The translations under genes and the position numbers were made by a program. The notes beneath the pieces are model-generated. The model was given only the letters and a program-made list of their open reading frames with translations, was not told where the DNA came from and searched no databases. Shown here in pieces: positions 8,066-56,765 of a DNA stretch of 64,000 bases. How positions within the stretch are numbered: the stretch's first letter is position 1; each line of letters opens with the position of its first letter. The stretch is taken from the NCBI GenBank assembly GCA_037951105.1, contig JBAMJV010002966.1, forward strand, positions 61,001 through 125,000, in the 5' to 3' direction. This stretch comes from Echinarachnius parma (taxonomy: Eukaryota; Echinodermata; Echinoidea; Clypeasteroida; Echinarachniidae).

Positions 8066-8212
8066 GCATTATATCCTACATGAATGAAATCCTGTTCAGT
8101 GATTGGTCTACATAGCGTCATGTGACCAAACATAGTAATGCCCATGGAGAAAAATGTGCTATGCGTGACGTCATTCATGGAATAGTAAATGCTATTCCAT
8201 GAATGACGTCAT
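8066..8212. repeat. 147-bp hairpin module, copy 1
   Basis: This module is identical to 14568-14714 except for four bases, all inside the terminal hairpin. The hairpin has 20-bp perfect arms (8166-8185 and 8192-8211) around the loop taaatg. The flanking sequence differs completely from that of the second copy, so the module moves or duplicates as a unit. Confidence 0.85.
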
Positions 8213-9785
8213 AGACGCCGGGTGATCATATTGAGCCCATAGAGATGCGTGTTATAAAAACTTCCCCGCGAGCAGAGGTCTTGTTTTAGCTTGCGAAAGA
8301 TGCTCGACGAGATTTCTCAAAGAGTTATTTAAAAAGAAATACAGCATATTTTCACCCGTGAATATCAATAAGTTCCAAAGAATATTCTAGAGATGCATTT
8401 CATGTATAACGTAGCGGTATTCGAATTTAAAAATTACGACAATGGTCACATTGTGCATCGTTGTCCTTCTGTGGTCGTGACACTAATTTGTCATTAGAAA
8501 ATTGGCCGCGGTGTGCACTACATGTACACTAGCTGTATGTGTAATGTACGAATAACTAGTTTCTCCATACAATTACACGTGTGTAGTAATCAAGGATATT
8601 TAAATATATTAAGCGTATTTGTACAATAAGCGTATTGTACAGCTATACGCTTATATAATAAGGATCGTTTACCTTATCGCGCGCTATTCACTTTTCTACA
8701 GGATAAGCGTGTCCATGGGGAAATAAGCGTATTGCGCAGAGACAATTTATGTAAATTAGACAAACGTTCAACATTAACATAGAAACAACAACAACAAAGA
8801 AAACGCGCACACCTCTGACCCATGGACCTAGATATACGTAGATTCATAATACCACAACTGATGATGCAGCCGGTTTGAAAGCAAATTTCAGATTTTTAAA
8901 TTTGTGCTACACAAAATGAAATTTTAATTTAACAGACGGAAGTATAATTTATATTCAACAATATTGTATGTTAAATTTTGATACTAGTGCATTAGTTGCG
9001 CCAGTACAAGTTGGCCATTTTGAAAATTTATTTCGTATCTATTTCTTCCTACAATTCTGTGGTGTGGTCTGCTGAACGTCATATCTCCGGGCACCCGGGT
9101 TGTGTATAATAATCGATACTGCTGGCGATTTTGGGGTTGGTTTGTTTATTCAGTACAGTCAATGCATTGGCGCGCGCGGGAAAATTGTCTGCAAGTGTAA
9201 AACATGTAGGCCTAATAATTGGTAGCATTACCGGTATGCTATAACTTTTGCCATTATCATTACAGGCTCATGTTTAAGTGTTTGTATTACTAAAGTAGTT
9301 TGTTTATTTTGTGTGAATACAGTCAGCTATTTTGATAATTCACTTATCACTTTATGATACAGTAATTCATCGTTTCGCTGCTTGTTTCCCATACCAAGCG
9401 GCATGATCATTTCCTTCCATTTTACAGGTCTCTCAATTTACTCATGGCGTATTTAAATAGTCAGCCAAGTTCAATTATTTGAAGTGATGTTGCAAAAAGT
9501 GTTATTCCTCCTTCCAAATTCATAAATTTCCGATATGATTTGGTAACTATATAGCGTTACTGACAATTATTTACGTGCAAACTTATACTTGTGGGCATAG
9601 ACGTGCGATTTTGTTTTAATTGTTTGTTTTCATGCTATTGTACATGTGTTTGTTGCAGTGGTGTGTTGATCATACATTTAATCTGAATATCATTCTTTTA
9701 AACTTGGGCGATAGCTGTTGTTCGCCAAGGTCCTGATATAACATCTTAAAATACAAATACAATGCAATACTGTACAGTATTACGT
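8213..9785. other. Gene-free AT-rich stretch
   Basis: No coding region was recognised. Between 8605 and 8760 the word aataagcgtattg recurs (about 8611, 8627, 8731, with an inverted match near 8645). The remainder shows nothing assignable. Confidence 0.45.
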
Positions 9786-9789
9786 TCGA

Positions 9790-9841
9790 AGGCACACACA
9801 TACACGCACACACGCACACGTACACACACACGCACACAAAC
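9790..9841. repeat. (AC)n-rich microsatellite
   Basis: Interrupted CA/CG dinucleotide tract. Confidence 0.8.
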
Positions 9842-9939
9842 GCCTATATCGCTTTCTTTGTACATTAAAATGATGATGCAGTTTTGGTCAAACAGAACTG
9901 TATAGTGTTTTAAACTTACGGTATATCATTAAACAAAAC

Positions 9940-11400
9940 TTATACTTTATTTATCAATGATACTTGCATTGTAGAAAAGCTCATACAAACAGCTAAGTGA
10001 AAAGCCTGTTATCATTCAAAAGCAGCCTTTCAACCCTTTTCATGAACAATAGTGCTTGTGTATTCTGTAATTTAAAACAATCATTCAATTATGAGATCAT
10101 CAACAACTATTGAATAACCTCTTGGTTATTCGTGCGGGTGTTATATAATTTGTATTGGTCAAATAATCAAATGAATGGGGGCCCACATGTTTATTCCAAT
10201 CAGATTGACAGCTGGTTCTCAACAAATTTTGATCCAATAATTTTGTTTTATCTCTAAAATCACGTGCTCTTCCAAGAATTACACTTAGTTTTTCATATTC
10301 TCACAAATTCATTATTTCTTGAAGCGCCAAATCCAAAACTTACTATAAACACAAACGACATTCGGATTTTGAGTCTATTATTATAAACACACAATTATAT
10401 CATATCTGGCACCACTTTTGGTATTCAAATCGCCAAACCCTTGTCTCGAATAGGATATGGCAAATTGACAATTATTTGTGCTTAAAGGGTGAGTTTTGGT
10501 AAAGAGAGTACAGTTTTAGTCGATTTTAGTAAGCAAAACATGCACCATTACATTACAATCCAATAGTTATTACTCCACCATGCTAAAAAGTAATAAAATA
10601 TTTTTTCAAATTACATGTACTAAGTAAAAAGCCTGTTTTCATTCCAAAAGAGCAATTCAAACTCAAAAGGGCGCTTTCTAAACACTCATCGGTTTCAACC
10701 ATTCAAAACAAAATATCGTGCATGTGATGTTTTGTTGAAATAGTGATTAGATAGACTAATAGTAATAGAGATAATCACCGACCATCTCAAAACCTATTTT
10801 GTAAATTTTTGAAAAGAGAAAGCATTTTTTAAATATTTTTTTTTACGGCTAGTTGGTTCAAAATTGTTGAATAATTTTGGGGCCCCACATTTATTACAAA
10901 TGTTTATGGATATTTCAGCCATTTCTCAACTATCCCTTTAATCCTATTGATATTGTTATTATAGGATGAATGGGTGAATGAGTAAATAAATGGGTATACG
11001 GCATTGGAGTAATGCTCCAATAATAAATGCTGCCACATTCTGTTTGAGACCCACTTGTTAACAAAGGGTAGGTACTAGCTCAGCCATGAAGCAAACGATT
11101 GTTTCAAAACTCATTTCAGAGAGAAGGTAATTAGCTAATCCACTGATACAAACAGGTCTTAAATAAATGAGAATTAGGAGGCTCGAAAACTTTCCAAACT
11201 TTTTGTGAGGAGCTAATTTTAAAAAAAAATTAGTAAATTTCCAGAAAATATACCTGTAAGTATTTATTTTGTTGTTCTTAAATAATCATATACATTTAAT
11301 GGGATCCCACGTTTATCCTGATCAGATATATTTATTGAAATTTCAGCTGTTTCTGACCCGATTTTGATTTAATGAGGAGTATTTTGTTAGAACTTAAGAA
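9940..11400. mobile_element. Degenerate MITE copies, TTTTGGTAAAGAGAGTACAG family
   Basis: The clearest copy spans about 10484-10950. It shares gagttttggtaaagagagta, aagtaaaaagcctgtt, aaacactcat.ggtttcaacc and catgtgatgttttgttgaaa with elements at 21771-22312 (reverse complement), 25540-25835 and 62317-62874. Weaker pieces (ggggcccacatgtttatt and similar) lie at 9940-10260 and 11120-11390. None is coding. Confidence 0.65.
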
Positions 11401-11819
11401 GAACCATTTGTCACAAATCCCTTTCAAGATCAAGTCATCTTAAATATTGCACTTACACACTTCTCAACAACATGATTGACAAAAACCACAACTAATACAC
11501 CGAAGAAGGGTTCCCCTCTGCTTTTTAAGGACTTGGGACCTTCAAATCCGAAGAATAAAATATTTGCAAATGTATACTTAATGATCAATGACTATTTCGG
11601 GGTATGATCTAAAAGTACACATTTATAATTTACATACTTATTCTTCGGATTTGGCAGCATTAGAACCATTTTCAAAACGAACGGCTAGAAGGTTACAATG
11701 ACACAAACAACTGAAAAATTGATGGCATCTAATTGTTTAATGTCTTTCATTCGTCAACAGACTTAGACTAAGAATCTGAGTTAACCTGGCGCCGTGCAAA
11801 GCACACCCACTGATTTACA

Positions 11820-13330
11820 GATAAGAATGAGTAGGCCTAACTCTAACTCTAAATTAGTCTAACTCTAAGAGTAAAACTAAAAGACTCTGCCTCTGGACTC
11901 TATAAACCTCTAGTCTGACTAGAAGTAAATATTTACTAAAGTAAACATTTAGTCTTATTTATATCTGTATTCTCTAAATTTTTTTAAGTACTATAATGAC
12001 TATTTTATTAGTCTTACTCTAGTCTTATGTTCATACTAGTCTAAGATAACTCAGATTGTATATTAGTTGGTCAAGAAATCTAGACTAGTCTTAGACTTAG
12101 AGTAAGAGTAAGACTATGAATGATATAGACTAAATGAGTAGTGTAGAGATTTAATTGAATAATTGTTAATGTTAATTTATACTTATTGAGTAAGTGTAAC
12201 TGTAATTACGGTAAGTTACTAAAATACTACGTCAATTCAAGCCCGAGGACAGGTCACTAACTAGTAATTATATAGCAAGTAAGTAGGTCTAGACTAGAGT
12301 AGAGTAAGACATCAAATGAAATCTGAAGTAAGTCTAACTTACTAGTAATAGTTACTAGTCTAGTCTAGACTAGATATAGTTAGTAAAGACTAGCCACTAC
12401 TATTTTAGAATGATTACTAGTCTAGATCTTTAGATATAAGAATGATACTTGATACTTGATAGTGTCTTACTTAGTATTTTATAACTTTTGTATATTATGT
12501 AACAGTCTATAGTTTAACAAATGAAATAGAACAGAAGATTTGACAACAAGTTGTGGAGCAGTCGAGACTCGAGTAAGACAAAGTCGAGGATGAGGTCGAG
12601 CCGATGGCGAAGGCTGAAGTCTGAATCAATTCGACTTAATTCACAAATGGGTACACCAGCAAAACATTAATAAGGCAAAACTTCAGAGTTCAAAGTAACA
12701 TTAATCGCAACTATGTCTATATAATTAAAAAACTCCAACCAGTCCAATTAAAAGAACTTGCACATTAAACAGAGTCATGAGGAATTTATTGATTCAACCC
12801 CAAAATAGCTAGAAATCGAAGCCGGGGCCATTAATACAGTACCAACAGCAACACTGCAACATGCAACAGCAACACACAAACTGAGACTGAGGCGTTTGCA
12901 AATTATTTTTTCGTCCGTACAATTACAACTAACTAGCTATACTACAAGTACAACCACTCGTCCACTGCACTGTCAATGGAATACGCTACTTTAAATAAAT
13001 CTACAGTAAACCATTTGTCGGGGCGGCTCAGCCTCAGTCAGGGCAGGCCTCACTTCATACAATTAATTTACATAATTATGTCATACTCATAGATAGACTG
13101 TCTGTAGACGACTTTAGTTTTAGTTTAGTTTAGTCTAATTAAAATGGCTAGAGTCTACTCTAGAGACTAGAGTAGACTAGTCCTAGAGGCTAGAGTAGAC
13201 TAGACTATTCTAGACTAGACTAGACTCAGACAGAGTCAGAGACAGATTCAGTAAGACAGTAGAGACAGTCATTCGAAAATGCGCTTACTAAGTCTAAGAG
13301 TAAGAGTAAGACTAAGAATATTATTAATAT
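11820..13330. repeat. TAGTC/GACTA-rich low-complexity domain
   Basis: About 1.5 kb is dominated by non-periodic combinations of agt, cta, tag, gactag and tctaga, densest at 11835-12440 and 13100-13320. It is not a tandem array of fixed period. No coding region is visible. Confidence 0.6.
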
Positions 13331-13724
13331 TACTGTATTTAATTATATTAAAGATAAATTAAAATGAAATCATTGAGTATTATTGACAAGTCATGACATT
13401 GTTATTGTTAACATTTTGATTTAAGTTAACAAGTCATATTCATAATTATTATTAGTCGATAGTATTAGTAACTTAGGACCCGGCTTCTGTCCTTAGGCTA
13501 AGCCTAGCCTAAACTAGGGCTATGCCTGGGCTAACTACTCTCTCAGACCCACCTCCAGCAGTATTTTGGAGGATTAAACGATTCAATATTTAATTTTGTA
13601 TTGTCTGAGACCGTCCAATCCCAGTTGGTACCTACACAAAATACCGCATATGGGACTACGGTTACTTAAGCCTCGTATCATTACTTCTAACAATCCTCCA
13701 GATAACAACAAATAAATCACTTAC

Positions 13725-13760
13725 CCTTGGCCTTCACTCGCTGATAATAGTCAAGATGAT
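13725..13760 (-). other. Possible 36-nt exon on the minus strand
   Basis: On the minus strand a pyrimidine-leaning acceptor, ttcattatgcag, precedes a 36-nt segment that ends at a strong donor, gtaagtga. One reading phase is open throughout and gives HLDYYQRVKAK. Nothing links it to a known gene, and short chance exons are common. It is listed because both splice signals are good. Confidence 0.22.
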
Positions 13761-14284
13761 CTGCATAATGAAATTCCAACGGTTATTAAGTGATAGACAT
13801 AATTTTCAGATAATGGAGTCATATTAAAATGTATTTTTGCGATTTACTTTCCCTTTTTTCGCAGCAACCAGACCAGTCAGCTGTGATCGTTTCCATGGAG
13901 ATGAAGCCGATTCCCAACCTTATTAGGTTAATATCGCGATTTTTTGTATCGTTCTCAAAGTTTTCGATTCTAGTCCTCTGACGTCACTTCGATCGATAAT
14001 ATTGGAATTTATGGTGGGAATATTGTATATTTTACCCATTTATGTTTTATTTTCTGACTCAAATGTTAATAAATATTAAAAATTGTATTATTATAAAGTG
14101 AAAGCAATAAAGACTGTATTTTATTTCCGTAAATCAAGTCTAGCGATCTTACTGTGCTCTCCAAATTGGGGCCGTATTGACACCAGCGCACAAATCGGGT
14201 TTTGGCAGCTGGTGCGGCGATCGCGCAATCGATGAGCTGTTTCTCTCTTTGATAGTATATCACAGTATCGAATCTCTCTGGTAG

Positions 14285-14570
14285 TAATGTAAAGCAGGTT
14301 AATTATTCACTTTGATGCGCGCGTTTTGCATTTGGGTGCGCATTAGTTGTTAAGGCACGGAACCATGAATGGAAAGATAGCGCACAACGCGCTCTGCGCT
14401 AGGACTTTTGCGCAAAGGGGGTCAGTGTCACAAACAGAACATAGTCAGTGCAGTGATGGTTCCATGATCAATGCTTTGTTTTTCTTTATATTTTTCATTA
14501 ATTTAATTGAAATCATTTATTTTTGCGATGATTATGGTATGCGAAGGATATAAAACAAATATATCATGCA
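14285..14570 (+). repeat. Left long direct repeat flanking the Crypton-like gene
   Basis: About 285 bp is roughly 90% alike to 16584-16867, starting near gttaattattcac and ending with aaaacaaatatatcatgca. It contains several gcgca-type words and an inner gggggtcagtgtcacaaac block. It is followed at once by the 147-bp hairpin module at 14568. Confidence 0.85.
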
Positions 14571-14714
14571 TTATATCCTACATGAATGAAATCCTGTTCA
14601 GTGATTGGTCTACATAGCGTCATGTGACCAAACATAGTAATGCCCATGGAGAAAAATGTGCTATGCGTGACGTCAATGATGGAATAGTAAATGCTATTCC
14701 ATCATTGACGTCAT
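14568..14714. repeat. 147-bp hairpin module, copy 2
   Basis: Matches 8066-8212 at 143 of 147 positions. The 20-bp arms at 14668-14687 and 14694-14713 pair perfectly around the loop taaatg. All four differences from copy 1 are in the arms and compensate one another. Confidence 0.85.
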
Positions 14715-14740
14715 ATATAACGATTAATCAATGATTTTCA

Positions 14741-14802
14741 TCGATATCAACACGATATACACAATATCAAATCGATATCAACACGATATACACAATATCA
14801 AC
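14741..14802 (+). repeat. 31-bp tandem repeat upstream of the Crypton-like gene
   Basis: Two identical head-to-tail units (14741-14771, 14772-14802) containing tcgatatcaacacgatatac, followed by a partial third. They lie about 110 bp upstream of the likely start codon, in the probable promoter/5' leader. Confidence 0.85.
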
Positions 14803-14910
14803 GCGATATATCGGATCGGTATCGCTCCATAGACTTGTGTACTAAACGGATCGTCTGCGCTGCAAAATTAAACTTCGCGCCGCTGCAATATTTCTAAACA
14901 AACCACCAAA

Positions 14911-16244
14911 ATGGCCGCCGCCGCCGCCGCCGCTGTTCGGTTTAACCTCATCGATGACGAGGATTTAGAGGCTTTCATTGGCTCTACCGATAGCGAAAAC
15001 ACCAAAAAACAGATAAAATACGGACTTTCAATCTTCAAAGAATTCTGCTTGCTCACTAATGTGAATTTTGAGGAAATAACATTGCTGATTTAGACAAGCT
15101 TCTTTCACGTTTTTACGCCGGGGCCCGCACTAAGAAAGGGGACGGATATTCGGCTAAATCGATGCATTGTATCAAGTTTGCTCTCCAACGACACTTTTTG
15201 TCAATCAAAGGTGTGGACATCAAAGGTAAGGACTTTCCTTTGTCTAATCGTGTGTTCAAGGCTACGATTGTGAAACTGAAATCAAGTGGAAAGGGTTACG
15301 TAAAGCATCATCCATCCATCAGCGATGCTGACATGACAGTCATTCAAGACAGTTTTGATATTTCAAAACCAAGAGATCTGCAACGAAAGGTGTTTATGGA
15401 TTGCATGATCTTCTTTGCTAACCGCGGTATGGAGAACTTACGAAACATGAAACCAGGAGATTTCATCCTACATGAGCAAGGGGAAAAAGAATTTGTCACT
15501 TTGAGGGACATGAGCACCAAAAATCATCGAGATGATAATGAAAAAAGTCAGGGCGGTCAGATGCATTCTGTCGCTGGAAGTTCACGATGCCCTGTGAAGA
15601 ACTTGAAGAAGTATCTTCGGAAGTTGAATCCGCTGTGTGAGTACATGTGGCAGAAGCCCAAATGTAAAGTCAGTGATGCCGATGATGTGTGGTTCGACAA
15701 TTCTCCTCTTGGAAAGAATACACTAGAATCTATGACAAAGAAGATATGTGAAGATGCTGGCTGCAGTCTGAAGTACACCAACCATAGTCTCAGAGCTACA
15801 AGCATCTCCATTTTGGACCATGCCGGCTATGCCTCGCGTCACATCATGACTGTCTCAGGACACAGATCAGAGACATCGATCAAAAATTACTCTCGCACTA
15901 GTGAGCAGCAGAAAGTAGATATGTCAAAAACCTTGTCTGCAAAACTGCATGCTTCTACTGTCGAAAATGCCAAGATCGACCAGCCGTCCACCTCAAGCTC
16001 GGCAGATGGTGCTGTTGGCAATGACAATGTTGGTAACACTAACAGTAACAGAGAAGATATGATGACAGACAGTCAGGTCGAACGTGTATTAGAAGCTCAG
16101 AGACAGAGTCAGATCACTAGTCCTAGACCTAGATCTAGTCCCACTACAAGCAATAATATTACTCACATGAACCTTGTTTCTGAGAGTCGCCAACGGATTT
16201 TCCACTTTCATAGTGGATGCATTGTACACATGTACAACAAATAG
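14911..16244 (+). CDS. Crypton-like tyrosine recombinase (one frameshift)
   Basis: The gene probably encodes the tyrosine recombinase of a Crypton-type DNA transposon, which would cut and rejoin DNA through a phosphotyrosine link. The start at 14911 sits in a good Kozak context (caccaaaatggcc) and opens with an alanine run. The first 60 codons end at a stop at 15091. The continuing sequence is in another frame from about 15084, so one small indel near 15076-15090 separates two pieces of one protein of about 440 residues. In the part from 15162 (residue 1) the catalytic set is readable: Arg in ANRGMENLR (88-94), Lys in TKNH (120), HSLR (208-211), GHRS (234) and Tyr in IKNY (243). The tail after residue 265 is Ser/Asn/Gln-rich and low complexity. 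The fold matches the DUF3504/Crypton-derived family also found in KCTD1, QRICH1 and ZMYM proteins. Flanking long direct repeats argue for a mobile element rather than a host gene. Confidence 0.82.
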
Positions 16245-16583
16245 TAACAATAACATTGACTTCATCATGTACATACGTTTTAAATACTTTTTAGTGTTCC
16301 ATTGTTTGGTTTGACATTGTTTATTTGAAACTCATTGATTGAGACTTTGACTGTTCCGTTGACTTTCCAATTCGATTGACCGTGACGTCCGTTTAAAACT
16401 ATTTATCGTGTTCTAGCTGTGGACTCTACATTTTGGATATATCAAGTGACATTTATGGTAAGTAAACACATTTTGTATATATTAAAAAGATCGATAGAAG
16501 ATATTAAAAAACAAATAGTCTTATAATTATACCGTATCATGCATTCATTCCAATATTACACGATAGTAAACATATGTAAACGT

Positions 16584-16867
16584 ATTACGTAAAGTGTGTT
16601 AATTATTCACGTTTGATGCGCGCGTTTTGAATTTGGGTGCGCATTAGTTGTTAATGCGCGTAACCATGAATGGAAAGATAGCGCAATACGCCCTTGCGCT
16701 ATAACTATTGCGCAAAGGGGGTCAGTGTCACAAACAGAACATAGTGCAGTGGTGGTTTCATGATCAATGTTTTGTCTTTCTTTATATTTGTCTTTAATTT
16801 AATTGAAATCATTTATTTTTGCGATGATTATGATTATGCGAAGGATATAAAACAAATATATCATGCA
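16584..16867 (+). repeat. Right long direct repeat flanking the Crypton-like gene
   Basis: Same orientation as 14285-14570, with scattered substitutions and short indels. It begins 340 bp after the recombinase stop codon and its last 19 bp form the base of the hairpin that follows. Confidence 0.85.
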
Positions 16868-17021
16868 CTATTTCGAGCCACTAGTGAAATTATGGATTCC
16901 TCGGTGACAGGAAAAGCACTATGTTCTTCGGGTCTACGACCCTCAGAACATAGTGCTTTTCCTGTCACCTCGGAATCCATAATTTCAACTAGAGGCTCTC
17001 AGTGCATGGTATATTTGTTTA
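16849..17021. repeat. Long hairpin, unit 1
   Basis: The arms pair from aaacaaatatatcatgcac (inside the direct repeat) to its complement ending near 17021, through gaaattatggattcc and gaaaagcactatgttct, with a tiny loop near 16936. Two internal 2-nt bulges carry TC on both strands. The 154-bp core (16868-17021) is repeated immediately downstream. Confidence 0.9.
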
Positions 17022-17175
17022 CTATTTCGAGCCACTAGTGAAATTATGGATTCCTCGGTGACAGAAAAAGCACTATGTTCTTCGGGTCTACGACCCTCAG
17101 AACATAGTGCTTTTCCTGTCACCTCGGAATCCATAATTTCAACTAGAGGCTCTCAGTGCATGGTATATTTGTTTA
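17022..17175. repeat. Long hairpin, unit 2 (tandem copy)
   Basis: Head-to-tail copy of 16868-17021 with one visible substitution (acagg to acaga). The pair must be a recent duplication. Short open frames inside the units are palindrome artefacts. Confidence 0.9.
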
Positions 17176-26034: not shown

Positions 26035-26134
26035 GACCCTTACAACATATACGGAGATCAAGCATAGATAATCGTTTTTCCATGTCGTTTTTTTGTTGAC
26101 ATATACAGGAATGCTTTGAATCTTTATCGTTTTA

Positions 26135-27223
26135 ATGGCGACTGGCTTCAGCGGGAATGGATACAAGTGCGAAGGGCCTGGGTGTCAGGCGAACAGCGGG
26201 GTGACATACATTGTCAAGGAGAAGAAGAGTCTATGTAAGGAATGTGCTAAAAAGGTCAGGAAAGGAAGAAAGGATGATATTGGTCTCTTCTGTGAACAGG
26301 CCGATGAGACGCATAACAAGATCGTTGAACTGTTCTGCCAAAACCACGAGGTAGCTGTCTGCCAGATATGCGCCACCAAGGATCATCAGAAGCCGTGTCA
26401 GCTGGAACATGTACCCGTTGTAATTAAAAACAAAAGAGACCAACTGTTGAACCTGATGCCCCCATTGAATGAAAAGCAACGATCTTGGGAAACGTACAGC
26501 GATATGATTAGTGAGTGTAGGCAAGAATGTGAAACACATTTTAAGTCAGTTGAAAATGTAGTAAATAAAACCCTTGATGATGAGATAGTGCGAATCAAAG
26601 ACAAGGAGCTTCCAAATGGTGCTAAACGGATCAATGACGAAGCAGATGAAGAATTACGGAAGATAACTAAGAAAATCAACACGAAGAGAGAAGCGCGTCT
26701 GAAGCAATGTCACGAGGATGCAGAAATACATCGCCAGAAAATTGAGAGCAGACGACGCGAGTTGCTTGATGACGTCACAACTAGAGCTGACAAGACTCAA
26801 AAGAAGATTGTTGACATACAGCGCAGTGCGAGGGATGTGATGCAAGCCATCAACGAAGCTGCTGCAAGAATCGAAACCCTACTTGAGGATGATAGGGAAC
26901 TTATCGAAGGTGCACAGGAGCTAGTAACATCACTCTCCGACACTCTTGCGAAGACGGCCGATGAGGGCGTGGTCAAACACGTCACTCGCGCAGTGAAACG
27001 GGTGCATTTCACTGAGGGTGGGAACCGGTTTGGGAAAATCACGGGCAATCGAGGGAACTTCAAGGGGTACGTAAAAAAGTCCCAAAGCGTTGCTGTTTGT
27101 AAACAAATGCTTCGTAATATAAGCGATGTAGAAGATTCGTTGAAGTCTCCAATCCTATCAAAGACTGATATCGATGACTCAGAGTCTGAACCCGAGGACA
27201 CAGAGTATGAATCCTATTACTGA
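26135..27223 (+). CDS. TRIM-like B-box/coiled-coil protein 1
   Basis: A 362-residue intronless protein. Two zinc-binding B-box segments come first: C12, C17, C34, C37, then C53, H60, C68, H71, C76, C79, H84, H92. A long charged coiled coil follows (about 100-275), and then a short acidic Ser/Glu/Asp tail (about 335-362). There is no RING finger and no NHL, PRY-SPRY or other C-terminal domain, so it has no evident ubiquitin-ligase catalytic module. B-box proteins of this shape act as scaffolds or regulators through coiled-coil oligomerisation; the specific role is unknown. The second B-box is odd: the usual C-x2-H is stretched to C-x6-H by four extra residues compared with its paralogue at 46870. 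Upstream, tgttgacatatacag looks like a 3' splice acceptor 25-30 bp before the start, suggesting a spliced 5' UTR. An aataaa signal lies at 27255. Confidence 0.85.
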   Translation: MATGFSGNGYKCEGPGCQANSGVTYIVKEKKSLCKECAKKVRKGRKDDIGLFCEQADETHNKIVELFCQNHEVAVCQICATKDHQKPCQLEHVPVVIKNKRDQLLNLMPPLNEKQRSWETYSDMISECRQECETHFKSVENVVNKTLDDEIVRIKDKELPNGAKRINDEADEELRKITKKINTKREARLKQCHEDAEIHRQKIESRRRELLDDVTTRADKTQKKIVDIQRSARDVMQAINEAAARIETLLEDDRELIEGAQELVTSLSDTLAKTADEGVVKHVTRAVKRVHFTEGGNRFGKITGNRGNFKGYVKKSQSVAVCKQMLRNISDVEDSLKSPILSKTDIDDSESEPEDTEYESYY

Positions 27224-43460: not shown

Positions 43461-43536
43461 AATTTCGGAAAAGGGGTGCACAATCAAAAGCCATATATTA
43501 TATGGCTTTTAATTGTGCACCCCCTTTTCCGAAATT
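43461..43536. repeat. 76-bp loopless hairpin
   Basis: aatttcggaaaagg, then gtgcacaat, then aaaagccatata faces its complement with no loop (centre near 43498). One G indel and one mismatch only. Confidence 0.85.
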
Positions 43537-46755: not shown

Positions 46756-46869
46756 CACAATTTGCATCACTTTGGAGATCGATAGTTATATGGCAATCGT
46801 GTTTTTATTCCGCTTTATGTTTACGTATACAGGAACAGGACAGGAACGCTTCGAATCTCTCTCATTATA

Positions 46870-47901
46870 ATGGCGACCGGATTCAGCGTGGACGAAAACA
46901 AGTGCGAAGGACTGGGGTGTCAGGCTTCCAGTGGGGTGACATATATTTTGAAGGAGAAAATGAATTATTGTAAAGAGTGCGCCCCCAAGACTGGTTGCTG
47001 CAGGAAAGTAAGGAAAGATGAACTTGGCCTACTATGTGAGATACACGACAAGCCTGTTAAACTGTACTGCCAAGAGCACGAGTTAGCTGTCTGTCGGTTA
47101 TGCGCCATCAAGGATCATCAGAAGCCGTGTCAGCTGGAAAATGTCCCCGTCGTACTTGAACAGAAAAGAGACCAACTGTTGAAGCTGAGACCCACATTAA
47201 ATGACAAACAACATTCTTGGAAAACTTACGAAAGTAGAGTAAGTGAGTGTATGAAAAAATGTGAAGCACATATTAAGTCAGTTGAAAAGGCAGTTAATGA
47301 TACCAAAGATGGTCAATTAGCACGTTGGAGGAAGGAGGAGCAAGATGCTGCCAAACTGATCGATGACGAGGCAGATGAAGAAATAAGGAAGATAACGGAG
47401 GAAATCAACGAGAAGAGAGAAGCGCGGCTGAAGCGATATCACGAATATGCAGAGAAACATCAGCAGAAAATTGAGAACAAACGACACGAGTTACTTGATG
47501 ACGTCACATCTAGAGTTGATACTGCTGAAGAGAAGATGTTGGGCTTACAGCGCAATGCGAGAGATGTGGTGAAAGCCATAGACAAAGCGGCGGGGAGAAT
47601 GGATATCCTACTTGAGGATGATAAAGAGCTTCTCAAAGGCGCACATGAGCTGATCACATCACTCAATTACACTCTCGGGAAGACGGCCGATGAGGATGTT
47701 GTCGAAAATATCACACGCACAATACAATGTGTACGGTTGATTCAGGGTACGGAAAATGAGATGTACGAAGAGAGTATCGTGGGCTACGCTGAGGAATATA
47801 ATCCGTTCGAGAGATATGTGACACATTATACCCGCGAGAGTACAGAATTTTCCTGCATATTATCACAATTTGTACAGAAGAAGTTCTTTCAGAAGAATTA
47901 G
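46870..47901 (+). CDS. TRIM-like B-box/coiled-coil protein 2
   Basis: A 343-residue intronless paralogue of the gene at 26135, sharing the N-terminal MATGFS and most of residues 10-290. B-box 1 uses C12, C17, C34, C37; B-box 2 uses C56, H59, C67, H70, C75, C78, H83. The last expected His (LEHV in the paralogue) is Asn91, so the final zinc ligand may be missing. The coiled coil spans about 95-285. The C-terminus (about 290-343) shows no similarity to the paralogue's. There is no RING or C-terminal recognition domain. Function is likely scaffolding; the partner is unknown. Upstream, tttatgtttacgtatacag matches the acceptor-like sequence of gene 1, with homology on both sides of the AG. That indicates DNA duplication rather than retrocopying, despite an A17 tract at 48079-48095. 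Confidence 0.85.
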   Translation: MATGFSVDENKCEGLGCQASSGVTYILKEKMNYCKECAPKTGCCRKVRKDELGLLCEIHDKPVKLYCQEHELAVCRLCAIKDHQKPCQLENVPVVLEQKRDQLLKLRPTLNDKQHSWKTYESRVSECMKKCEAHIKSVEKAVNDTKDGQLARWRKEEQDAAKLIDDEADEEIRKITEEINEKREARLKRYHEYAEKHQQKIENKRHELLDDVTSRVDTAEEKMLGLQRNARDVVKAIDKAAGRMDILLEDDKELLKGAHELITSLNYTLGKTADEDVVENITRTIQCVRLIQGTENEMYEESIVGYAEEYNPFERYVTHYTRESTEFSCILSQFVQKKFFQKN

Positions 47902-51647: not shown

Positions 51648-51838
51648 AGGTGGGCTGTACATCATACAGACCACCTCATAATTTCGTTAGAATTGCCTTT
51701 ATTTATTAGGTGGGCTGTACATCATACAGACCACCTCATAATTTCGTTAGAATTGCCTTTATTTATTTATTTATTTATTAGGTGGGCTGTACATCATACA
51801 GACCACCTCATAATTTCGTTAGAATTGCCTTTATTATT
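51648..51838 (+). repeat. Three tandem 60-72 bp hairpin modules (array leader)
   Basis: Copies start at 51648, 51708 and 51780. Each begins with an 11/12-bp hairpin (aggtgggctgta facing tacagaccacct) and ends with cataatttcgttagaattgcc. The third copy is spaced further by an attt expansion. Confidence 0.9.
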
Positions 51839-53029
51839 CTTTATTTTTCTTATTTCCAATCACTTTTTTGTTACCACGATAACTTGAAAATGGCTCAATC
51901 AAGTGCCTTGAAATTTGGCACACATATATATAGGCATATGGACAAAGCAAAATAAGGTTTTGAACCCTGACCTTGACTGATGACGTCATCTAGGCGCCAT
52001 TTTGTAAAATTTTCTGAATATCTTCTCATGATCATATCTTCATAACGAAAAGTTGTTTCTCATTCATATTTATCATGATCAAGGTCAATATCCGTCCGGT
52101 CAATTTCAGGTCAAAAAACGCGCGCGCATGCGTACGTGCGCGCGTCAGCGCGCGCGCAAAATTTTAAAATGTTCAAAATCGTCGCAAATTCATTTTGGAT
52201 ACGTTTTAGGCCATTTTAAGCATTTTACGAAAAAACGCGCACACGCGCATGCGCGCGCGTTTTCGCGCGTACTGGCATTTTGCAACATAGAATCGCCGAA
52301 TTTTCTCTGTTATCATATTTAGCCCATCTTTCCAAGCATTTTGATACCTTGTTCACCTTTTTCTGACTAGTAAAAACGCAATGAGCTTCCGTTCAAGAAA
52401 CATGTCCGTGCGCGCGAGCTCTTGTAATACATAGCATATATGGGCAAAAACATGCCTATACAAAATTCATTGTAACTCTTCAGAATGGATGGGAACTCCC
52501 AAGTTTTTTTCATATTTGGATAGATTATGAGTCGGAGATATGATTTCATGTCTCATTTGACCCTCAATTAACTCATGGCGTCATCATAATGGCCTCCGAA
52601 CTCAAAATTTCAATTTGCATATTATGACGTCAGCATATTTTTGGAAAATTTATTGTATCTCTGTAAATATTGATCGATTTTCTTCCAAATTTTGATATGT
52701 TCTAGCTCAGACAATTCTCTACAAATGTGATGATCACGATTTTTCATTTTGACAAAGGCATCATGGCGTATTTTTGCGATTTAAGGAGGCATGTCATTTT
52801 TTCACATTTTGCGTGTATTCTCTATGGGACATGACTTTTTTTCAAAACTGGATTCTACATTCCCGTCTTTCGCGACCAATATCTTCTTCGTTTTAGCTTC
52901 GTTTACGCTGAACTTCGAGTATGTTGTAGCTGAGACAATAAGCTATCTCAAATGAGCCCTTGATTATGTCTTTAATTTTAGTTCGACCAGCCCACCTATA
53001 CTTGTTCTAAACAAGTATTACAATTCTAG
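51839..53029 (+). mobile_element. Helentron-like array unit 1
   Basis: A body of about 1.19 kb ends in cagcccacct (inverse of the leader's aggtgggctg), a 7-bp hairpin acttgttctaaacaagt and then ctag at 53026-53029. A subterminal inverted repeat followed by a 3' hairpin is the layout of Helentron-associated non-autonomous elements; CTAG would fit the classical Helitron CTRR end. The 89-codon open frame inside lies in a GC/CG tract and shows no protein signature. Confidence 0.55.
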
Positions 53030-53035
53030 TTTATT

Positions 53036-53141
53036 AGGTGGGCTGTACATCATACAGACCACCTCATAATTTCGTTAGAATTGCCTTTATTAGGTGGGCT
53101 GTACATCATACAGACCACCTCATAATTTCGTTAGAATTGCC
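53036..53141 (+). repeat. Two tandem hairpin modules before unit 2
   Basis: Copies at 53036 and 53092 (56 bp apart) are near-identical to the leader modules at 51648. Confidence 0.9.
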
Positions 53142-54338
53142 TTTATTCTTTATTTTTCTTATTTCCAATCACTTTTTTGTTACCAAGATAACTTGAAAAT
53201 GGCTCAATCAAGTGCCTTGAAATTTGGCACACATATATATAGGCATATGGACAAAGCAAAATAAGGTTTTGAACCCTGACCTTGACTGATGACGTCATCT
53301 AGGCGCCATTTTGTAAAATTTTCTGAATATCTTCTCATGATCATATCTTCATAACGAAAAGTTGTTTCTCATTCATATTTATCATGATCAAGGTCAATAT
53401 CCGTCCGGTCAATTTCAGGTCAAAAAACGCGCGCGCATGCGTACGTGCGCGCGTCAGCGCGCGCGCAAAATTTTAAAATGTTCAAAATCGTCGCAAATTC
53501 ATTTTGGATACGTTTTAGGCCATTTTAAGCATTTTACGAAAAAACGCGCACACGCGCATGCGCGCGCGTTTTCGCGCGTACTGGCATTTTGCAACATAGA
53601 ATCGCCGAATTTTCTCTGTTATCATATTTAGCCCATCTTTCCAAGCATTTTGATACCTTGTTCACCTTTTTCTGACTAGTAAAAACGCAATGAGCTTCCG
53701 TTCAAGAAACATGTCCGTGCGCGCGAGCTCTTGTAATACATAGCATATATGGGCAAAAACATGCCTATACAAAATTCATTGTAACTCTTCAGAATGGATG
53801 GGAACTCCCAAGTTTTTTTTCATATTTGGATAGATTATGAGTCGGAGATATGATTTCATGTCTCATTTGATCCTCAATTAACTCATGGCGTCATCATAAT
53901 GGCCTCCGAACTCAAAATTTCAATTTGCATATTATGACGTCAGCATATTTTTTGAAATTTTTTGTATCTCTGTAAATATTGATCGATTTTCTTCCAAATT
54001 TTGATATGTTCTAGCTGAGACAATTCTCTACAAATGTAATAACCACGATTTTTCATTTTTACAAAGGCATCATGGCGTATTTTTGCGATTTAAGGAGGCA
54101 TGTCATTTTTTAACATTTTGCGTGTATTCTCTATGGGACATGACTTTTTTTCAAAACTGGATTCTACATTCCCGTCTTTCGCGACCAATATCTTCTTCGT
54201 TTTAGCTTCGTTTACGCTGAACTTCGAGTATGTTGTAGCTGAGACAATAAGCTATCTCAAATGAGCCCTTGATTATGTCTTTAATTTTAGTTCGACCAGC
54301 CCACCTATACTTGTTCTAAACAAGTATTACAATTCTAG
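53142..54338 (+). mobile_element. Helentron-like array unit 2
   Basis: Near-identical to unit 1, with ctag at 54335-54338. Small differences include catatttttt at 53944 and acaaatgtaat at 54029. Confidence 0.55.
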
Positions 54339-55541
54339 TTATTATTATTCTTTATTTTTCTTATTTCCAATCACTTTTTTGTTACCACGATAACTTGAAA
54401 ATGGCTCAATCAAGTGCCTTGAAATTTGGCACACATATATATAGGCATATGGACAAAGCAAAATAAGGTTTTGAACCCTGACCTTGACTGATGACGTCAT
54501 CTAGGCGCCATTTTGTAAAATTTTCTGAATATCTTCTCATGATCATATCTTCATAACGAAAAGTTGTTTCTCATTCATATTTATCATGATCAAGGTCAAT
54601 ATCCGTCCGGTCAATTTCAGGTCAAAAAACGCGCGCGCATGCGTACGTGCGCGCGTCAGCGCGCGCGCAAAATTTTAAAATGTTCAAAATCGTCGCAAAT
54701 TCATTTTGGATACGTTTTAGGCCATTTTAAGCATTTTACGAAAAAACGCGCACACGCGCATGCGCGCGCGTTTTCGCGCGTACTGGCATTTTGCAACATA
54801 GAATCGCCGAATTTTCTCTGTTATCATATTTAGCCCATCTTTCCAAGCATTTTGATACCTTGTTCACCTTTTTCTGACTAGTAAAAACGCAATGAGCTTC
54901 CGTTCAAGAAACATGTCCGTGCGCGCGAGCTCTTGTAATACATAGCATATATGGGCAAAAACATGCCTATACAAAATTCATTGTAACTCTTCAGAATGGA
55001 TGGGAACTCACAAGTTTTTTTTCACATTTGGATAGATTATGAGTCGGAGATATGATTTCATGTCTCATTTGATCCTCAATTAACTCATGGCGTCATCATA
55101 ATGGCCTCCGAACTCAAAATTTCAATTTGCATATTATGACGTCAGCATATTTTTGGAAAATTTATTGTATCTCTGTAAATATTGATCGATTTTCTTCCAA
55201 ATTTTGATATGTTCTATCTGAGACAATTCTCTACAAATGTAATAACCACGATTTTTCATTTTGACAAAGGCATCATGGCGTATTTTTGCGATTTAAGGAG
55301 GCATGTCATTTTTTAACATTTTGCGTGTATTCTCTATGGGACATGACTTTTTTTCAAAACTGGATTCTACATTCCCGTCTTTCGCGACCAATATCTTCTT
55401 CGTTTTAGCTTCGTTTACGCTGAACTTCGAGTATGTTGTAGCTGAGACAATAAGCTATCTCAAATGAGCCCTTGATTATGTCTTTAATTTTAGTTCGACC
55501 AGCCCACCTATACTTGTTCTAAACAAGTATTACAATTCTAG
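54339..55541 (+). mobile_element. Helentron-like array unit 3 (no leader module)
   Basis: A 1203-bp unit joined directly to unit 2 by attattattc, without the 60-bp hairpin module. It ends in ctag at 55538-55541. Confidence 0.55.
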
Positions 55542-56745
55542 TTATTATTATTCTTTATTTTTCTTATTTCCAATCACTTTTTTGTTACCACGATAACTTG
55601 AAAATGGCTCAATCAAGTGCCTTGAAATTTGGCACACATATATATAGGCATATGGACAAAGCAAAATAAGGTTTTGAACCCTGACCTTGACTGATGACGT
55701 CATCTAGGCGCCATTTTGTAAAATTTTCTGAATATCTTCTCATGATCATATCTTCATAACGAAAAGTTGTTTCTCATTCATATTTATCATGATCAAGGTC
55801 AATATCCGTCCGGTCAATTTCAGGTCAAAAAACGCGCGCGCATGCGTACGTGCGCGCGTCAGCGCGCGCGCAAAATTTTAAAATGTTCAAAATCGTCGCA
55901 AATTCATTTTGGATACGTTTTAGGCCATTTTAAGCATTTTACGAAAAAACGCGCACACGCGCATGCGCGCGCGTTTTCGCGCGTACTGGCATTTTGCAAC
56001 ATAGAATCGCCGAATTTTCTCTGTTATCATATTTAGCCCATCTTTCCAAGCATTTTGATACCTTGTTCACCTTTTTCTGACTAGTAAAAACGCAATGAGC
56101 TTCCGTTCAAGAAACATGTCCGTGCGCGCGAGCTCTTGTAATACATAGCATATATGGGCAAAAACATGCCTATACAAAATTCATTGTAACTCTTCAGAAT
56201 GGATGGGAACTCCCAAGTCTTTTTTTCATATTTGGATAGATTATGAGTCGGAGATATGATTTCATGTCTCATTTGATCCTCAATTAACTCATGGCGTCAT
56301 CATAATGGCCTCCGAACTCAAAATTTCAATTTGCATATTATGACGTCAGCATATTTTTGGAAAATTTATTGTATCTCTGTAAATATTGATCGATTTTCTT
56401 CCAAATTTTGATATGTTCTAGCTGAGACAATTCTCTACAAATATAATAACCACGATTTTTCATTTTGACAAAGGCATCATGGCGTATTTTTGCGATTTAA
56501 GGAGGCATGTCATTTTTTAACATTTTGCGTGTATTCTCTATGGGACATGACTTTTTTTCAAAACTGGATTCTACATTCCCGTCTTTCGCGACCAATATCT
56601 TCTTCGTTTTAGCTTCGTTTACGCTGAACTTCGAGTATGTTGTAGCTGAGACAATAAGCTATCTCAAATGAGCCCTTGATTATGTCTTTAATTTTAGTTC
56701 GACCAGCCCACCTATACTTGTTCTAAACAAGTATTACAATTCTAG
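55542..56745 (+). mobile_element. Helentron-like array unit 4 (no leader module)
   Basis: A 1204-bp unit, again joined by attattattc, ending in ctag at 56742-56745 and running into the ATT microsatellite. Confidence 0.55.
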
Positions 56746-56765
56746 TTATTATTATTATTATCATG

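Follow-up and report, generated by a model that had tools for sequence, protein, structure and literature searches.

A Crypton-type element nested in a relative in Echinarachnius parma, and its possible folding into a single-stranded recombination site

In the parts of the 2011 Crypton paper drawn on here, no terminal repeats are reported for animal Cryptons, fungal and oomycete Cryptons have short direct repeats at their ends, mostly of 4-6 bp, and Crypton boundaries are described as hard to define so far; the word 'hairpin' is absent from the main text (PMC3212892). Integron attC sites, as treated in the cited portions of two further papers, recombine in the form of a bottom strand that is folded and carries extrahelical bases, and replication finishes the reaction (PMC2727003, PMC4792948); the integration of phage CTXphi is named in one of these portions as the only reaction somewhat similar to it (PMC4792948). 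For the att sites of the Vibrio element SE-6945, the cited portion of PMC9345347 reports that no inverted-repeat structure was detected. The present analysis concerns an autonomous Crypton-type element in 64,000 nucleotides of Echinarachnius parma DNA (this whole stretch is called the window; contig JBAMJV010002966.1, positions 61,001 to 125,000, forward strand). The element is near certainly nested in a resident non-autonomous element of its own family, at the junction of that resident's repeat (R) with its terminal palindrome (H2). The best explanation of the whole, to which we give a probability of about one half, combines this nested anatomy with a single-stranded circle that would fold into its own recombination site; it is the mechanism, the folded single strand, that stands at about 50%, and the anatomy that is near certain.

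A sequence-only reading of the window had described a Crypton-type recombinase gene bracketed by direct repeats of about 285 bp, about 90% alike, each leading into a different hairpin, the right-hand one tandemly doubled, with a 31-bp tandem repeat before the gene. These parts are all present. R1 (14289-14570) and R2 (16589-16867) are 90.5% identical over 284 aligned positions, the H1 hairpin has the stem 14668-14687/14694-14713, the tandem repeat is located at 14740-14809, and the H2 palindrome at 16850-17020 is followed by a second copy extending to 17174. A second H1 module stands at 8069-8213 without an adjoining R, and the module starts where the R1/R2 similarity stops. Since the outermost left arm of H2 falls within R2, 'repeat' and 'hairpin' are not distinct modules on the right side. 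A non-autonomous copy aligns to the window in three segments (8069-8590, 14281-14570 and 17021-17174). The resident element has thus been interrupted in two places. One interruption is a 5.7-kb insertion (approximate length) bordered by GTAGTAAT; the other is the autonomous element (14571-17021), which sits at the R|H2 junction. What looks like a doubled hairpin is the autonomous element's own H2 followed by that of the resident. The features are as follows.

14571..17021, plus strand: autonomous Crypton-type element, 2,451 bp, TTATATCC...TTTGTTTA, with boundaries common to related copies
14571..14715, plus strand: H1, the 5' terminal module with a short perfect hairpin
14911..16244, plus strand: tyrosine recombinase gene (Pfam DUF3504, Phage_integrase), frame broken near 15080, with intact natural copies
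16589..16866, plus strand: R2, subterminal 3' region of the autonomous element, lying 3' of the gene in 18 of 21 distinct copies
16842..16864, minus strand: internal foot AGGATATA-AAACAAA-TATATCAT, nearly the joined ends in inverted form, without the crossover dinucleotide
16850..17021, minus strand: H2, the 3' terminal foldback, its bottom strand with GA/GA internal loops and a C-GTA-G apex
8069..8590, plus strand: 5' part of the resident, comprising H1 and body, by alignment to the L006 and L008 copies
8591..14280, strand not assigned: insertion of about 5.7 kb splitting the resident, with the 8-bp duplication GTAGTAAT on both sides
14281..14570, plus strand: R1, the resident's 3' part up to the insertion point
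17022..17175, plus strand: the resident's H2, displaced by the insertion (the 'tandemly doubled' hairpin); it continues R1 in intact non-autonomous copies
14561..14570, plus strand: left half of the target ATA-TCATGCA^C-TAT, whose right half is 17022-17025 and whose uninterrupted form is found in L008

The 5.7-kb insertion contains no frame of at least 130 aa.

Copies elsewhere in the 1.2-Gb host assembly (in which the window lies on contig C2965) bear this anatomy out. Window pieces were mapped onto 38 loci, with rows from 35 and none from L036-L038, and distinct elements were counted by hand from the mapping table, with L001/L009, L024/L028 and L031/L034 merged. There are 21 distinct, closely related recombinase elements, all starting with H1 and sharing the left boundary; 20 encode proteins of at least 97% identity, and the remaining one (L029, 95%) is decayed. 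The right boundary is common to the copies with a readable right end and to the non-autonomous copies. The order H1 - gene - R2 - H2 is found within the locus in 18 elements, the exceptions being L019, L029 and the interrupted L011, which has an H2 farther along its contig. R1 stands directly upstream in the window copy alone, and its absence from the other 20 removes the long direct repeats as candidate element ends. From 1,567 first-look candidates for R1 by itself came 40 scored matches, which are 96-100% alike, and the repeat occurs there within a non-autonomous element. Six of the seven non-autonomous loci L002-L008 read H1 - about 370 bp - R1-type repeat - H2 over about 910-955 bp; L003 shows no H1. 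The suggestion that two hairpin-ended miniature inverted-repeat transposable elements (MITEs) flank a Crypton by chance is thus half right: R1 does belong to a MITE-like relative, of the same family, whereas R2-H2 is the Crypton's own 3' end. Nor is an exchange of hairpin modules supported: complete copies have H1 as 5' end and H2 as 3' end. What the sequence-only reading offered as a Crypton variant with structured ends has held up, H2 being a conserved foldback at the true right end. The recombinase protein has 108 matches in the assembly (about 20 near-identical, many others more distant), and the exact 29-base left end occurs 988 times. The family is abundant, with near-identical copies and intact genes, and its ends, target, crossover and folded structure are defined.

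The product of the window gene matches DUF3504 (1.7e-10) and Phage_integrase (4.3e-7) in Pfam. Its frame is broken near 15080; intact copies of 447 aa are found at L010 and L018. Both domains score above cut-off in L018 (the window's family, A), L036 (family B), L033 (family D) and L035, and DUF3504 alone does so in L032 (family C). R175, K207, H295, R298, H321 and Y330 are invariant across these five families and are taken to be catalytic; without K207 they are the set read as R-H-R-Y. The same five recombinases share a similar C-terminal motif, FHFxGCxVxIxN, and their tails otherwise differ. The gene is the only frame of more than 100 aa in the 2.45-kb element, a reverse transcriptase domain was not found in its protein (Pfam, E 0.01), and the element has neither terminal inverted repeats nor long direct ones, R1 lying outside it. 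DIRS and Ngaro elements carry a reverse transcriptase and split direct repeats; here there is no further long frame, and the repeats are not the element's ends. By its domains, its R-H-R-Y residues, its one gene and its lack of long terminal repeats the element is classed as Crypton-type, provisionally CryptonA. The likeness to CryptonA extends from the single recombinase gene with R-H-R-Y and the lack of a reverse transcriptase gene to the absence of terminal inverted or long direct repeats and the excess of non-autonomous over autonomous relatives, the latter two as given in the cited part of PMC3212892. The difference lies in the conserved 3' foldback with its self-matching foot, in the ATA-N8-TAT target and in the fixed crossover. 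Viral contigs gave no DNA match and no confirmed relative, and searches with Rfam (at gathering scores) and ARAGORN found nothing.

The ends, the target, the crossover, the foot and the conserved loops are read directly from the copies. Left ends start TTATATCCTACATG and right ends finish GGTATATTTGTTTA. From 51 left and 93 right-type ends listed, 50 and 47 were retained after removal of one left end truncated by its locus and of right-type rows that are the inner foot or flipped copies; some end rows are copies of one insertion (L051, L060). ATA occupies positions -10 to -8 in 39 of the 50 left ends (the others read CTA 5, TTA 3, TAT 2 and ACA 1). On the right, A follows TTTGTTT at all 47 ends and TAT stands two bases further at 44, the base between being C (17), A (15), T (11) or G (4). 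Together these flanks give the usual target as ATA-N8-TAT. In four copies, namely the window's, L007, L047 and L027, a known target is legible on both sides; in all four the crossover is N7^N8, each target base being retained once. The targets are the R|H2 foot in the window copy, the H1 apex in L007 and L047 (in two orientations) and, in L027, the stem of another hairpin (E), which pairs again once the flanks are put together. The three family-B copies (L036-L038; recombinase 47% identical) have A-N-TAT on the right, and ATA, ATA and CTA at the same places on the left. There is no long inverted similarity between the two element ends, which share only TAT (TTAT on the left, NTAT on the right). 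A recombination site at the end of R had been considered as the element boundary; it was dropped, the flanks of other copies having given the true ends. Flipping of the hairpin by the recombinase was considered for L051 and L060 and set aside: the right end is lost and one left flank is common to both. In these two loci (contigs C6543 and C4534) H2 is inverted in place, with a breakpoint within TATATTTGTTT and a left flank shared across the two contigs.

Exact head-to-tail junctions, TTTGTTTA-TTATATCC, occur six times genome-wide (control 0), which would fit integration of a circle. The junctions with target DNA are one-sided. Fifty right ends were found without anchoring on their final bases, and in none of them do target bases replace the element's spacer (45 read TATTTGTTTA, two are close variants also ending in A, and three come from flipped copies); TTTGTTTA appears at 2 of 49 left ends, both within tandem arrays. 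In a double-stranded reaction between unlike spacers, either spacer is expected at either junction after repair. At loxP, Cre cuts each strand one base inside the 8-bp spacer, and in that geometry N7^N8 would presumably be a bottom-strand cut. One-sided junctions and a crossover at this place are therefore consistent with exchange of one strand, the bottom.

The foot of H2 follows the element's ends. Read outward, the left foot of H2 in family A is TGCATGATATATTTGTTT-TATATCCTTCG, and the joined ends are TGCATGGTATATTTGTTT-AT-TATATCCTACA. But for a few differences and the missing two crossover bases, the foot repeats the circle junction in inverted orientation. Family B has different letters in the same relation (foot GGTGATTATTTGCTT-TATATTCCACATC, ends GGTAATTATTTGCTT-AT-TATATTCCACATA), and the feet of C and D resemble their own ends. 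Contiguous matches of the foot to its own left end run to 8 (A), 12 (B), 10 (C) and 12 (D) bases, against 7, 5, 11 and 10 for the best foreign left end. For the inner foot and the right end the matches are 19, 15, 18 and 16, against 14, 9, 15 and 16 for the best foreign one. As judged from these comparisons the relation is clear in A and B, and C and D are not cleanly separated from their relatives. In a natural tandem junction (L042) the folded foot pairs across the junction, and the bulge is the crossover dinucleotide A^T only.

The stems above these feet have no mutual similarity among A-D at the comparison settings used. Folded as bottom strands with DNA parameters (one copy per family), all four have GA-containing loops at nt 21-23, 49-50 and 77-81. 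All nine symmetric 2x2 loops in these four copies are GA/GA, and in the remaining three loops at the conserved places each side contains GA; further loops, of 1x1, bulge and unequal type, are present as well. Among 300 random 190-mers of the window (one strand) 1 of 77 2x2 loops is GA/GA; nine further palindromic stretches of the window, folded on both strands, have six 2x2 loops, none of them GA/GA. The apices are CGTAG (A), CGAAG (B), CATCG (C) and CGAAG (D). Tandem GA in a Py-GA-Pu context and C-GNA-G triloops are unusually stable in DNA. A parallel is found in Streptomyces telomere hairpins, which have GNA caps and sheared pairing according to the portion of PMC7205883 cited here. Fold energies (top/bottom) are -73.0/-72.9 for A, -67.4/-72.8 for B, -63.0/-64.1 for C, -76.5/-78.9 for D and -78.1/-78.0 for the L042 junction; the nearest-neighbour DNA parameters behind them may not capture sheared GA. 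Both loops are kept in 44 of 45 family-A copies (this count covers copies fitting a fixed core pattern in a sample picked by similarity and is supportive only). In L024 (L024:3278-3431) the left arm of H2 has been corrected to the complement of the right arm and both TC/TC loops are now perfect pairs, a change that looks like template switching within the palindrome.

A palindrome scan that made no use of the GA/GA signature returned, besides simple repeats, A with its variant L024, B, D, hairpin E and an unrelated palindrome at 43497; it missed C. Hairpin E, which we count as a fifth family, adjoins the insertion in L027 and L052 (L027:3229-3320); by our own reading its fold contains two loops of the GA/GA type, the apex CGTAG and a foot similar in form to the others. 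A family-A insertion has struck it at ATA-GTCAAATC-TAT in both loci. The palindrome at 43461-43536 has a TATTA apex and no 2x2 loops and is probably an unrelated MITE.

The mechanism proposed for these structures is the following. The element would move as a circle formed by joining of its ends (...TTTGTTTA^TTATATCC...), and the 3' palindrome would serve as a folding device, the bottom strand forming a stem of about 75 bp with GA/GA steps and a GNA cap. The internal foot would then pair across the joined ends and rebuild a double-stranded recombinase site in which the scissile A^T is bulged. That single strand would be exchanged by the recombinase with an ATA-N8-TAT target in double-stranded form; the host's replication would then complete the insertion, as it does with integron cassettes and phage CTXphi. 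The single-stranded circle, its folding in the cell and the replication step are what we infer.

Several points weigh against this mechanism. Circle, single strand and recombination are deduced from sequence rather than observed, and every family examined comes from one genome. The apex of C is not GNA; with wider boundaries, two of three bottom-strand 2x2 loops in the window's H2 are GA/GA; and L035, L029 and L030 showed no such palindrome. By fold energy the bottom strand is the more stable in B, D and C, by 5.4, 2.4 and 1.1 respectively; in A it has no such advantage. The foot of C fits the left end of D slightly better than its own (11 versus 10), and the inner foot of D fits the right end of A as well as its own (16 and 16). 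C and D are moreover single copies whose right ends read TTTGTATA rather than TTTGTTTA, and their exact ends are provisional. One-sided junctions could also arise by biased resolution of a double-stranded reaction. Finally, the non-autonomous copy L006 (L006:865-1940) has the left side of an H1-apex insertion and a right flank that is not the apex's other half; it may be rearranged, or of other origin.

The main rival is an ordinary Crypton with a double-stranded circle, the palindrome acting in double-stranded form, for example as an accessory binding array or as an inverted decoy that sets direction. We regard this as possible, if doubtful: a double-stranded circle is the view of Crypton movement given in the relevant part of PMC3212892, double-stranded tyrosine recombination normally uses arm-spacer-arm sites, with a palindromic target being nothing unusual for it, and the inverted foot could be just a second binding site, but such a circle leaves unexplained the GA/GA loops at fixed places in unrelated stems, the GNA apices, a foot that lacks exactly the crossover dinucleotide, and the one-sided junctions. 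The palindrome, which follows the gene on the coding strand, could instead act in RNA form, by ending the transcript or by stabilising it as a hairpin. Long stems can indeed shield RNA 3' ends. The coding-strand loops, however, are TC/TC, the motif making structural sense on the opposite strand; the foot tracks DNA ends, including a left end 2.3 kb away; and non-autonomous copies carry the hairpin too, all of which makes an RNA role unlikely.

Template switching within the palindrome could by itself have made arms and foot alike, without any function, and the correction in L024 is an example of it. The same process would erase the GA/GA mismatches that the 44 family-A copies and four families have kept, and it cannot make the foot follow a distant left end unless the ends are joined; we consider this reading very improbable. 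A new Crypton type with the long repeats as functional ends, similar to long terminal repeats, had in its favour the 90% identity of these repeats and their placement around the gene in the window. With 20 of 21 related elements lacking the upstream repeat, and R1 being part of another element, this idea is already refuted.

The single-strand mechanism would bring the element close to bacterial and phage systems. With attC it would have in common, as a likeness in working only, an imperfect palindrome, bottom-strand folding, extrahelical bases and exchange of a single strand followed by replication. It differs from attC in being the end of a eukaryotic transposon that needs joined ends, and in that the extrahelical bases are the crossover bases; neither an attI platform nor a cassette array is seen, and the genomic targets are dispersed. 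The attP site of CTXphi reportedly consists of two half-sites folded into one site. CTXphi likewise integrates a folded single strand by tyrosine recombination (PMC4792948, PMC9345347, in the portions cited), using the host's XerCD (PMC4792948), whereas here the element has its own recombinase and dispersed targets. The strand-biased tyrosine recombinases and one-strand behaviour of the Vibrio SEs, as the cited portion of PMC9345347 presents them, are a further likeness; SEs take 6 bp of old flank into their circle (PMC9345347), and here apparently no flank bases are carried. A Crypton with a terminal hairpin or a folded site was not found in the titles and abstract openings of the open-licence literature matches listed. 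The most far-reaching reading, to which we give slightly less than even odds, is of an animal transposon that would enter its target as a circle of single-stranded DNA, the bottom strand being folded, with sheared GA steps and GNA caps, into its own recombination site. This would be an independent eukaryotic invention of the principle used by integrons and CTXphi, in an element with a recombinase of its own.

The insertion place of the autonomous element in the window fits the target-site rule, and it has parallels. The left side of the same type of nesting, at the foot, is found at 15 exact sites genome-wide including the window (control 0), two of them on one contig. The H1 apex ATA-GTAAATGC-TAT (about 14684-14697) is itself a target site, and insertions in H1-like apices number 12, ten of them with the exact family apex letters. 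Expected numbers were obtained by weighting with the target matrix (our own arithmetic, with residents and insertions set at 1,000 each) and come to about 3 against 15 seen for the foot, about 10 (both orientations) against 12 for the apex, and about 6 against 6 for tandems. Self-targeting beyond the target motif was considered; nested insertions are common, but the matrix expectation allows no strong claim. A role of the foot as conserved target site was rejected, the site being present in A and absent in B. The apex form ATA-N8-TAT occurs in A and B and, by eye, not in C or D.

To our knowledge, the movement of animal Cryptons has so far not been tested; now that an abundant family has defined ends, target, crossover and folded structure, it can be put to a direct test. 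Were the folded-strand model true, single-strand tyrosine recombination would not be confined to bacteria and phages. The vertebrate genes KCTD1, KIAA1958, ZMYM2-4 and QRICH1 derive from Crypton recombinases according to the cited part of PMC3212892, and under the same model such genes might descend from a hairpin-reading enzyme.

Two further features of the window lie apart from the element. A tandem satellite with a unit of about 1.2 kb (51702-56759; four copies, 97-99% alike) adjoins a long TTA run. The segments 26105-26992 and 46840-47721 are 76% alike; the proteins they encode (362 and 343 aa) are similar too, and the N-terminal part of each is rich in cysteine.

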